From NCBI RefSeq assembly GCF_037914945.1, contig NZ_CP149787.1, forward strand, positions 1,612,001-1,676,000: a DNA stretch of 64,000 nucleotides, in the 5' to 3' direction. The DNA comes from Haloterrigena sp. KLK7 (GTDB lineage: Archaea; Halobacteriota; Halobacteria; Halobacteriales; Natrialbaceae). Numbering within the stretch: position 1 is the stretch's first letter; the number at the start of each line of letters is the position of its first letter. Position numbers and translations under genes: made by a program. The notes under the pieces are model-generated. The model saw only the letters and a program-made list of their open reading frames with translations, searched no databases and was not told the origin of the DNA. Positions 49,666 through 52,946 of the stretch are shown here, in pieces.

Positions 49666-50895
49666 TTACCCCTCGAGCCCCGTCGGCACACCGGCCCGCT
49701 CGAGCGCTCGCCGTCGCTCCCGATCTGTCAGCCGGTAGGGCTCGAGTTCGGTCTCGAGCGATCCCAGTTCCGCCCGTCGACGCTGGTGGTCGGCGAGGAA
49801 GTCGCTGATCCGCTCGATCGCGAGTTCCTTCAACTCGCCGCTGAGCAGGTCCCCGGCGCGGTAGTCGGCGGCGATGCGCTCGAGTTCCTCGTCGTCCGGC
49901 TCGAAGAAGAATCGCAGGTACTGGAAGGGGACGTCGACGGTCGGATCGCCGCCCTTCTCGCGGTGTTCCGCGAGCGTCGCTCGGCTGCCGGTGTAGGCGT
50001 GCGTTCGGATCGTCTCGGCGACGCTCTCGGGATCGTCGGTGAGCTCGATCGACGGCGCGCCGCCGGAGGAACTCATCTTGCCCGGCCCCTCGAGGCCCGG
50101 GAGGAAGCGCCCGAGCAGCGCGCCCGGCTTGTCCACCGGGAGCGCCTCCTTCGCGGCGACGTCGCGACAGACGCGGACGTGGGGGTCCTGATCGACCGCG
50201 ATGGGGACCAGCGTCGGCTGCCGGCCCGCGACGAGTTGCGGGAGCAGGAGGTGGGTGGCCTGCACGGCGGGATAGAACTGCAGGCCGACGGTGTCCTGGT
50301 CGCCGTAGACCGCCTCGACCGTGGCCGGCGTGAGGTGCTTCGCGAGGCGAACCGCGATCGGGTAGACCACGTCCGCGTCGGCCGTGTCGACGACGATCCG
50401 GGTCCGTTCGGGGTCGAAGCCGACCGCGAGGACGTCCCGCAGGTTCTCGCGGGTGTGCTCGCCGATGGAGTCGAACGACTGGTCCTTCGCGAGGAACTTC
50501 TCGTCGTCCGAGAGCGGGACGTACACCGTCGCGCCGGTCGCGCGCTGAAACCGCTTCGCGAGGTACAGCGGGAGGACGTGGCCCAGATGCATCGCTCCAG
50601 AGGGGCCGCGACCGGTAACGATCGCGTGCGGATCGCCGACCGCGGCGGCCTCGAGGTAGTCGTCGACGTCCCGACCGGCGTAGAAGGTCCGCCGTCTCAG
50701 TAGCGGGTGGTCGGGGAACCGATTGATCTGTTCGTCCGTTAGGGGATCGGCGCCGAAGCGCTCGAGCAGTTTCTCGTAGTCGATCTCGCCGTCGACGGCG
50801 TAGGGCGTGACGGTGAACGCATCGGAGTCGGGGCGATTCGGTTCGGTACTCGGCTCACTGGCGGTGCTGTCCGGTGTCTCGGATGGTTCTGGCAT
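49666..50895 (-). CDS. trpS: Tryptophanyl-tRNA synthetase
   Basis: 409 residues, class I synthetase. The HIGH-type motif is HLGH in SGAMHLGHVLPL and the KMSKS-type motif is KMSSS in GKMSSSGG; YGDQDTVGLQFYPAVQ and the acidic N-terminal extension (about 25 residues) are as in archaeal TrpRS. It is preceded by an 84-base spacer and, before that, a 27-codon leader ORF with three Trp codons, strongly suggesting control by charged tRNA-Trp. Confidence 0.97.
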   Translation of the reverse strand: MPEPSETPDSTASEPSTEPNRPDSDAFTVTPYAVDGEIDYEKLLERFGADPLTDEQINRFPDHPLLRRRTFYAGRDVDDYLEAAAVGDPHAIVTGRGPSGAMHLGHVLPLYLAKRFQRATGATVYVPLSDDEKFLAKDQSFDSIGEHTRENLRDVLAVGFDPERTRIVVDTADADVVYPIAVRLAKHLTPATVEAVYGDQDTVGLQFYPAVQATHLLLPQLVAGRQPTLVPIAVDQDPHVRVCRDVAAKEALPVDKPGALLGRFLPGLEGPGKMSSSGGAPSIELTDDPESVAETIRTHAYTGSRATLAEHREKGGDPTVDVPFQYLRFFFEPDDEELERIAADYRAGDLLSGELKELAIERISDFLADHQRRRAELGSLETELEPYRLTDRERRRALERAGVPTGLEG

Positions 50896-50979
50896 TGCTC
50901 TCTGCTGGTGGATCGGATGATTGGAACGCGATTCGCGCGAAAACGAGCGGAGGGAGCGTCCGTCGCCGCGGCCGCCGGG

Positions 50980-51063
50980 TTAGGCCGCGTCGCCCGCCGC
51001 GACGGGACTGTCCGCTCTCGAGGGGGTCTGCCAGTGCCACTGCCACTCGAGGGCGGACCGCAT
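50980..51063 (-). CDS. Trp-rich leader peptide of trpS
   Basis: A 27-residue ORF too short for ordinary gene calling: MRSALEWQWHWQ at its N-terminus, ending GDAA then TAA. It has three Trp codons in five at positions 7, 9 and 11. Its ATG is 30 bases from a strong BRE/TATA, so translation should be leaderless. The Trp codons lie exactly in the loop of a 13-base stem whose arms are codons 2-6 and 14-18. The design is that of a leader peptide sensing low charged tRNA-Trp. Function is inferred. Confidence 0.7.
   Translation of the reverse strand: MRSALEWQWHWQTPSRADSPVAAGDAA
51010..51058 (-). promoter_or_regulatory. Attenuator-like stem of the trpS leader
   Basis: Arms 51046-51058 and 51010-51022 pair at 12 of 13 positions (one C-A mismatch). 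The 23-base loop between them carries all three Trp codons. A ribosome stalled there would hold the 5' arm open and allow downstream structures, including a second stem (50983-50989 with 50967-50973) that spans the leader stop codon, to change. A T4 run follows at 50943-50940 on the transcript strand. Confidence 0.65.
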
Positions 51064-51088
51064 TATCGATGCCTAGTCTATCATCCGA

Positions 51089-51096
51089 TCTAAACG
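51089..51096 (-). promoter_or_regulatory. Promoter of the trpS leader transcript
   Basis: On the minus strand CGAAACGTTTAGATC has a BRE-like CGAAA and a TATA-like CGTTTAGA centred 30 bases before the leader ATG. Confidence 0.65.
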
Positions 51097-51231
51097 TTTC
51101 GGTGCCGGCTACCTGATCCACGCCGAGCGACGGATCGTCGCTCGGTCGCGCCCGGGCTAAGCGCGGATATCGATAGCGGAGACTACCCCCTCGCCGTCTC
51201 CGTCCGTCTCAGTCGCGCTACGTTCGAGTAT

Positions 51232-51290: not shown

Positions 51291-52946
51291 ATGCCATCCG
51301 AACCGACAGACGGGATCGAGCGACGGCGACTGCTGGGATACGCCGGATCCGCGGGCGTCGTCGCGCTGGCCGGGTGTGCGTCCGGCGGAGAAACCGCGGA
51401 CGACGAGGACGAGAACGGTGAGTCGGAACCCGACGACCCGGACGAGTCCAACCCCGATGAGACGGAGCAAGAGAACTCGAGCGACGGGGAATCGACGACC
51501 GTCCGGTTGCTCCACGACACGCACTTTCACGGGTCGATGGGGGCTCCCGACGAGGCGCTCAACGTCGCGAACTACTTCGGGCTGATGGACGACCTCGCCG
51601 CGGACCCGCCCGACGGGAACGCGCTCGTCGTCGGCAACGGCGACGATCTGCACACGTCCGTCGAGTCCTCGGTCTTCGACGGCGGCCACATGGTCTCGCT
51701 GTTCAACGCGGCCCCGCTCGAGTACGACACGTACGGCAACCACGAGTTCGACAACGGCCCGGAGAGCCTCCGGGAGAACGTCGCCGACAGCGAGTTCACG
51801 TGGGTGAGCGCGAACGTTCGCGACGAGCGGACCGACGACGTCTTCGCCGCCGGGGAGGGCGCCCGGCGGTACGCCCTCGAGGAGATCGACGGGGTGCGGT
51901 TCGGGATCACCGGGCTCGCGCCGGCGGACACCCCCGACGTCGCCTCCGTCGGCGATCACGTCGACGTTCTCGACCCGGAGACCGCGATCGAGGGGGTCGT
52001 CGGGGAACTCTGCGACGAGGGCGCGGACGTGATCGTGCTGCTGTCGCACCTCGCCAGCCCCGTCGCTCGGGAACTGGTCGCGGCCGTCGACGGGATCGAC
52101 GTCGCCGTCGGCGACCACGCCGCGATGGTCTACGACGAACCCGAGACGGTCGACGGGACCGTCGTCTCGGTCGTCGGCGACGAGTTCGACTACGTCGGTC
52201 GACTCGACCTCGAGATCGGACCCGAGGGGCTCGTCGACCACTCGTTCGAGCGATTCGACCTCGCCGCGGAGGTCGAGAGCGGGAACGTCGAACCGCACGA
52301 GGCGGTCCAGTCGCTGCTCGAGGAGTACGAGAGCGACCTCGAGGCGGAACTCGACGTGGTCATCGGCGAGACCGCGGTGCCCCTGGACGTGCGGACCGAG
52401 ACGGTCCGCAGCGAGGAGTCGAATTTCGGGAACTGGCTGACCGATATCATGCGCGCGGATCTCGGGGCAGACGTCGCGCTCCAGAACGGCGGCGGCATCC
52501 GCAGCGATCGGTTGTACGAGGCCGGCGACCTCACTCGACGAACGATCGTCGACATCCTTCCGTTCCCGAACCGGACCGTGAAACTCGAGGTCACGGGCGC
52601 GACGCTTCGCGAGGCGATCGAACTCGGCGTCAGTACGGTCGCCGACGGACACGGTCGGTTCCCGCAGGTCAGCGGGATGGCATATGCCTACGATCCGGAC
52701 GCCCCCGCGGGCGAGCGCGTCGAAGAGATCACGGTCGGCGACGAACCCCTCGAGGCCGACGCGACGTACGAACTCGCGACGAACGACTTCGTCGCGGGCG
52801 GCGGCGACGGCTACGAGATGTTCGCGGACGGCGACGTCCTCGTCCCCGCCGACGAGGGGACGCTGCTCTCGGCGCTCGCGATCGAGGCCATCCAGGAAGC
52901 CGAGGTCATCGGACCCGAAACGGAGGGACGGATCGAGGTCGTCTGA
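51291..52946 (+). CDS. 5'-nucleotidase / 2',3'-cyclic phosphodiesterase lipoprotein
   Basis: 551 residues. Tat signal (ERRRLLGYAGSAG) with lipobox ALAGC, then an acidic linker of about 40 residues. The metallophosphatase domain has DTHFHG, GNGDDLH and GNHEFD, and the C-terminal 5'-nucleotidase domain has ALQNGGGIRSD (about 400) and VAGGGDGYEMF. It is anchored outside the cell and would release phosphate and nucleosides from extracellular nucleotides. Length and domains match UshA-like enzymes. Confidence 0.93.
   Translation: MPSEPTDGIERRRLLGYAGSAGVVALAGCASGGETADDEDENGESEPDDPDESNPDETEQENSSDGESTTVRLLHDTHFHGSMGAPDEALNVANYFGLMDDLAADPPDGNALVVGNGDDLHTSVESSVFDGGHMVSLFNAAPLEYDTYGNHEFDNGPESLRENVADSEFTWVSANVRDERTDDVFAAGEGARRYALEEIDGVRFGITGLAPADTPDVASVGDHVDVLDPETAIEGVVGELCDEGADVIVLLSHLASPVARELVAAVDGIDVAVGDHAAMVYDEPETVDGTVVSVVGDEFDYVGRLDLEIGPEGLVDHSFERFDLAAEVESGNVEPHEAVQSLLEEYESDLEAELDVVIGETAVPLDVRTETVRSEESNFGNWLTDIMRADLGADVALQNGGGIRSDRLYEAGDLTRRTIVDILPFPNRTVKLEVTGATLREAIELGVSTVADGHGRFPQVSGMAYAYDPDAPAGERVEEITVGDEPLEADATYELATNDFVAGGGDGYEMFADGDVLVPADEGTLLSALAIEAIQEAEVIGPETEGRIEVV

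Follow-up and report, generated by a model that had tools for sequence, protein, structure and literature searches.

Why a tryptophan--tRNA ligase gene in Haloterrigena sp. KLK7 should be preceded by a very short reading frame with three closely spaced Trp codons is the question raised by this locus. Attenuation by leader peptides is usually regarded as a bacterial mechanism and needs coupled transcription and translation; to our knowledge, leader control that senses charged tRNA is well known in bacteria and hardly described in archaea. For this part of the window, the 64,000-nucleotide stretch of contig NZ_CP149787.1 that was analysed, an earlier note had proposed that a ribosome stalls on these codons when tRNA-Trp charging is low. 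Comparison with related genomes leads us to consider it likely that the element is a ribosome-mediated attenuator sensing tRNA-Trp charging, with termination at a U-rich tract that is relieved by an alternative RNA pairing (2:3). That it represents a real and widespread haloarchaeal leader sensing Trp-tRNA charging is, on the same comparison, very probable.

The leader, MRSALEWQWHWQTPSRADSPVAAGDAA, is a 27-codon ORF on the minus strand (51063–50980) with homologues in relatives, and its Trp codons are codons 7, 9 and 11 (51031–51045, judged by sequence, codon counts and spacing), which bears out the earlier note to the base. Nucleotides are numbered below along the minus strand, with nt 1 at 51063. 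The BRE/TATA signal that had been claimed upstream of the leader start was recovered as a BRE/TATA-like element, CGAAACGTTTA (51091–51101, minus strand), approximately 28–38 nt 5' of the leader ATG. Composition across 106 distinct elements aligned on the leader start codon showed an A-rich stretch at −36 to −34, a T/A-rich stretch at −30 to −26 and an AT-rich position at −11; this set comprised 109 pattern matches minus three chance matches (L121, L204 and L214), and the pattern also misses Ser leaders. A BRE, a TATA box and a proximal element form the arrangement expected for a leaderless transcript. Judged from this promoter layout, transcription probably begins at or near the leader ATG, and the leader itself is probably leaderless. 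The gene, trpS (49666–50895, minus strand), was assigned by family model and genome comparison to an accessory short tryptophanyl-tRNA synthetase of 409 aa (tryptophan--tRNA ligase model NF008927; score 580 bits, cut-off 478), and its ATG lies at 50895, 84 nt beyond the leader stop, as in the earlier note.

Both stems that had been read from the single sequence were retained. P1 joins nt 6–18, the 5' arm in codons 2–6 (region 1, 51046–51058), to nt 42–54, the 3' arm in codons 14–18 (region 2, 51010–51022), through 12 of 13 pairs with one C.A mismatch, and its loop of 23 nt begins exactly with the first Trp codon. P2 (nt 55–109, 50955–51009) encloses the leader stop and is closed by pairing between an invariant AGU (51009–51007) and an invariant GCU (50957–50955). 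All of these features lie on the minus strand, and no spacer separates the two stems, which touch. The folding energy of the single window sequence is not unusual (z −0.50, with folds as good in 57 of 200 shuffles), so it is the comparison with relatives that carries the argument.

For this comparison, alignment A1 was assembled with 57 rows, consisting of the 62 loci with a strict leader pattern (described below) and the window, minus five near-identical rows and the diverged L055. Over the 11 pairs of P1 and the 11 of P2 including its tip, 91.8% of cells were paired, compared with a shuffled mean of 83.9%. Changes on both sides were observed at 11 pairs (7.1 in shuffled alignments) and in 126 cells (shuffled mean 44.9), and none of 500 shuffles reached the observed pairing or either of these counts. 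When the partners were slid by one to three columns, pairing fell to 39–47%. Matched arms out-paired permuted arms in P1 and in P2, with 0 of 2000 permutations as good for each. By the same permutation approach, the 3' arm showed no species-specific pairing with either half of P2; the 5' arm gave a signal against P2 (z −2.7, 5 of 2000 permutations) that may reflect shared ancestry.

Conservation of the sensor codons was followed across the 106 elements. At least one in-frame Trp codon lies 5' of the 3' arm in 104 elements and at least two in 97; seven have one only, and two (L247 and L308, both preceding acetyltransferase genes) have none, which counts against an attenuator. The distance from the 5' arm to the Trp core could be measured in 83 elements and varies by multiples of three in 76 of them, so the reading frame is conserved up to the Trp codons. 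Beyond them it is the RNA that is conserved, since in Halorussus the 3' arm is identical base for base and is read in another frame (ERTVS, not SRADS). The earlier note had suggested looking for the leader in relatives, where the Trp codons, the pairing of P1 and P2 and the promoter spacing were all found to be conserved. Natural variants were also observed. In L095 the second Trp codon is changed to TGA, leaving one Trp codon. Six further trpS leaders (L032, L033, L141, L144, L246 and L290) carry just one Trp codon, with Arg and the stop directly after it (...RRWR or RLWR), and the trpS copies of L032 and L033 sit on named plasmids.

These patterns bear on two other ways of reading the conserved segment. 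A small protein with a function of its own would fit the conservation of the tail SRADSVVAAGDAA within one family; however, the other-frame reading in Halorussus with the nucleotides kept, a stop position that, across the 106 elements, can precede the end of GGACAGT by up to 25 nt or follow it by up to 33 nt, and the replacement of the Trp core in Ser leaders render this scarcely credible. Similarly, P1 is an inverted repeat near a promoter and might be a DNA operator for a repressor instead of an RNA stem, but its arms change together in sequence, their spacing varies in codon-sized steps and the loop codons match the downstream enzyme, which makes such a site very improbable. Translation of the leader as the sensor of charged tRNA-Trp is, from these comparisons, well supported.

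What the sensor would act on was sought 3' of P2, where GCUC is followed by the pyrimidine/U-rich tract CCTCCGCTCGTTTTC (region 3, 50939–50953, minus strand), identified by folding and register covariation as the alternative partner of region 2 and terminator-like when free. Pyrimidines make up 79% of the first 16 nt of the tract, and its T content is 0.32 over 25 nt, compared with 0.167 in random window stretches. T-runs of at least three follow P2 in 58 of 106 elements, compared with 277 of 5000 random 25-mers from the window. Thus, P2 is followed by a T-enriched tract between leader and gene, but the T-runs are short; in 48 of the 106 tracts they do not exceed two, and the T5C stop examined in H. 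volcanii (PMC7237163) is longer, which counts against an attenuator.

Folding with the 5' arm removed, equivalent to its being covered by a stalled ribosome, gave the 3' arm other partners for at least 6 of its 13 nt in 105 of 106 elements, while 104 kept P2; in the folds printed without the 5' arm, the new partner was the tract. In the window, this 2:3 pairing joins GAGCGGA (51017–51011) to TCCGCTC (50951–50945) through seven perfect pairs. In a fixed register, placed in 102 of the 106 elements, all seven pairs were formed in 64 and at least six in 95, and 93.3% of cells were paired, compared with 50–71% in shifted registers. At four of the seven positions, pairing is promoted by the very rule used to find the register. 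The fifth arm base, which this rule does not favour, tracks its partner in the tract: A is matched by T in 22 of 23 cases, and of 72 cases with G, 51 have C and 21 have T as the partner (Fisher p 8.5e-9, with no correction for ancestry). Against shuffled tracts, 2:3 showed a modest excess (mean z −0.82; control segment +0.23), and permutation of whole arms gave no signal for it (1103 of 2000 as good), which counts against an attenuator. The pairing is convincing in the fixed register only. In permutation, neither P2 nor the sequence beyond the tract emerged as a species-specific partner of the tract. Both P1 and 2:3 draw on the 3' arm, and they are, by computation, mutually exclusive. The P1/P2/tract arrangement is, by its sequence, that of a putative attenuator with antiterminator.

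The proposed mechanism is as follows. Transcription would start at or near the leader ATG, and a ribosome would initiate on the leaderless leader. With ample charged tRNA-Trp, the ribosome would pass the Trp codons and leave, P1 (1:2) and P2 would form next to each other, leaving the U-rich tract free as a transcription stop. Of the competing helices P1 and 2:3, P1 is the stronger in all but one of the 106 elements, so the default state would be off. When charged tRNA-Trp is scarce, the ribosome would stall at the Trp codons, which lie in the P1 loop, and cover region 1; region 2, thus freed, would pair with the tract, and because this 2:3 pairing removes the U-rich signal, the polymerase would continue into trpS. 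Sequence comparison shows the in-frame Trp codons, P1, P2, 2:3 and its exclusivity with P1, the spacing of the promoter and the association with an accessory TrpRS. From these we infer that the ribosome stalls, that transcription ends at the tract and that trpS is induced when charged Trp-tRNA runs short, as under a TrpRS inhibitor; transcription termination would be the output, and the antitermination step is a supported part of this inference. The stalling control suggested in the earlier note is supported by the comparison. Its model lacked an output, and the 2:3 pairing, the accessory TrpRS and the exchange of Trp for Ser codons before SerRS are what the present comparison adds to it.

The output might also be produced in other ways. 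Stalling on the Trp codons could proceed as proposed while a termination or cleavage factor, of which FttA/aCPSF1 is an example, loads on free pyrimidine-rich RNA after the leader and is shielded off by the stalled ribosome or by 2:3. The tract, rich in pyrimidines yet with short T-runs, agrees with such a factor, and aCPSF1 is described, in the accessible part of its literature, as an archaeal terminator acting with U-tracts. Against it, the conserved hairpin directly 5' of the tract also suits hairpin-assisted termination, known in H. volcanii (PMC7237163), and we consider the factor-dependent output possible, though rather unlikely. Translation of trpS could be affected instead, if stalling altered the folding so that the start became accessible, or if ribosomes reinitiated. 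Consistent with this, no Shine-Dalgarno-like sequence is visible upstream of trpS in the window sequence; however, the trpS start lies 43 nt past the tract, outside P1, P2 and 2:3. By eye, the trpS start region of some species resembles the complement of the Trp-codon loop, but this complementarity is absent in others, and pairing between the two was rejected as a candidate. Control at translation therefore appears improbable, and termination at the tract relieved by 2:3 is retained as the preferred output.

A covariance model built from the 57 leaders placed the element in at least 183 of 392 genomes of the order, which is a lower bound since no more than eight candidates per genome were scored. 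The window's genome gave one match (E 5.5e-28; next best 0.2). Scanning of genome contigs yielded 77 trpS loci, 62 of which show the strict leader pattern, in which a short Trp-core ORF before trpS is followed by the G-rich arm and GGACAGT or a close variant. The loci missed by this pattern comprised six that are non-haloarchaeal or fragments (L072–L077), one cut 86 nt upstream (L026), two with diverged leaders (L023, L051), the one-Trp leaders of L032 and L033, L034 and L040 (on contigs of the same lengths as those of L141 and L246, which have one-Trp leaders), and L036 and L063. An Rfam search of 50850–51150 gave no match up to E = 1, including the T-box and the Rfam Trp leader.

The distribution also follows the type of synthetase. 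Twenty genomes of this genus and family without the leader were tested, and every one lacked the short TrpRS and carried the divergent TrpRS only; the window's genome encodes both. Upstream of the divergent TrpRS, 20 of 21 loci had no short ORF with WxW or WW within 450 nt, and the remaining one (L129) has an unrelated-looking ORF. By these gene contents, the leader marks the accessory short TrpRS. In eight other loci (L154, L157, L286, L287, L288, L295, L296 and L305) the leader stands before a long, divergent TrpRS, so the element follows function and not one gene lineage. The divergent TrpRS gene of the window's genome was located within about 5 kb of pheS (G000:C1:1695007-1700022).

The same RNA architecture was found with other sensor codons. 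Three Ser-rich leaders were identified, in L233 (G171:C9), L249 (G194:C4) and L232 (G194:C2), two (MESTSRSRSQSSFWEVDS...) before an intact SerRS gene and one before a broken serS; the product downstream of L233 is a SerRS (TIGR00414, 434 bits). Both genomes with an intact Ser-leader serS also carry a higher-scoring serS elsewhere. Codon identity thus goes with the gene, with Trp before short and long TrpRS and Ser before SerRS. Because the Ser codons sit on the same RNA chassis before an accessory SerRS, the sensor codons track the gene, and no other single observation argues as strongly for a leader that reads aminoacylation as this joint change of Trp to Ser codons and of the gene.

Further genes are preceded by this chassis. 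Four loci (L247, L248, L291 and L308) have it before GNAT acetyltransferases with no clear sensor codon, which counts against an attenuator; the product downstream of L247 matches Pfam Acetyltransf_3. Two copies precede a SAM methyltransferase gene, with leader codons WLTFW (L231 and L245, G190), and one precedes an ABC exporter (L143, G280:C1:1344105-1344252). A broader role is quite possible, although we advance it tentatively: haloarchaea may use modular P1-P2-tract leader RNAs whose sensor codons can be exchanged and which monitor aminoacylation or stalled ribosomes to induce protective genes (accessory TrpRS or SerRS, GNAT acetyltransferase, methyltransferase, ABC exporter), as an archaeal counterpart of antibiotic-inducible attenuation that evolved separately from the bacterial ones. 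The chassis hints at haloarchaea facing natural TrpRS and SerRS inhibitors.

The closest known archaeal case comes from dRNA-seq of H. volcanii. Table 2 of PMC4983044 lists, for HVO_A0127 (tryptophan--tRNA ligase), a 23-aa uORF (pI 5.4, mass 2743) in a 5'-UTR of 150–250 nt. As far as the accessible part of that paper goes, a start site was mapped upstream with no additional start at the gene itself, which agrees with the earlier note, for which a start inside or downstream of the ORF would have told against the leader. The Haloferax leaders analysed here are also of 23 aa, with masses of 2625–2730, different from the tabulated 2743, and a pI of 5.4 for H. prahovense; since length and pI match, the HVO_A0127 uORF is very probably a member of this family. 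Like the window's leader, it is a short ORF in a trpS 5'-UTR; unlike it, it is described there, in the text accessible to us, by length, mass and pI only, and the main text of PMC4983044 contains no 'attenuat' and gives no mechanism for the trpS uORF. Searches of open-licence literature showed no archaeal leader-peptide attenuator, and the accessible parts of PMC6490895, PMC12482152 and PMC11456600 contained nothing on trpS leaders.

Among bacteria, an auxiliary TrpRS gene of Streptomyces is controlled by ribosome-mediated attenuation, according to the title of Vecchione and Sello 2010 (cited in PMC4787780), and the accessible part of PMC1262725 reports attenuators predicted before Streptomyces trpS and leuS and before trpS2 of S. 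avermitilis. Leader control of a second TrpRS gene is shared with that system, as far as these sources describe it; here, it is the accessory TrpRS gene that bears the leader and, in some genomes, the long type instead. In contrast to the bacterial case, transcription and translation are archaeal and the leader ORF is probably leaderless, with its Trp codons in the P1 loop and its stop mostly within P2. Cognate leader codons and mutually exclusive RNA pairings are also features of the classical trp operon attenuators of Enterobacteria and, in the accessible part of PMC1262725, of Actinobacteria, and the present leaders are likewise short ORFs with many codons for the amino acid that the downstream enzyme charges (Trp, or Ser in the second version). 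They differ from the classical attenuators in that P2 stays intact in both predicted states, the switch would hide a U-rich tract and there is no strong poly-U. A further difference concerns biosynthesis genes, as no Trp leader was found within 1.5 kb upstream in 25 of 26 trpC and trpF loci (14 and 12, respectively), and the two ORFs detected were chance-like and both in L264, at −1498 and −640.

If the reading is true, haloarchaea would use transcription-translation coupling for regulation, on leaderless transcripts with a eukaryote-like polymerase, and attenuation in archaea would be widespread and matched to the gene. It would also form a clear exception to the view, given in the accessible part of the start-site study of H. 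volcanii (PMC4983044), that structured leaders are not typical in this organism.

Two minor observations were made beside the trpS leaders. An inverted repeat, CCGAGCGACG/CGTCGCTCGG (51120–51160), lies in the interval that separates the trpS promoter from the divergent gene at 51291 and could be an operator or a terminator. Among the pheS loci (L158–L187, with that of the window's genome, G000:C1, as L162), 26 of 30 have a Phe-rich leader ORF just after the promoter, typically ...SGFGFFFAR, together with a consensus stem CCGAATCCC/GGGATTCGG and a conserved TCGGAACCGCTAACTGA before pheS. By their sequences, these appear to constitute a second amino-acid-specific leader family, and a 26-aa uORF is listed for pheS of H. 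volcanii (HVO_2948) in the accessible part of PMC4983044.
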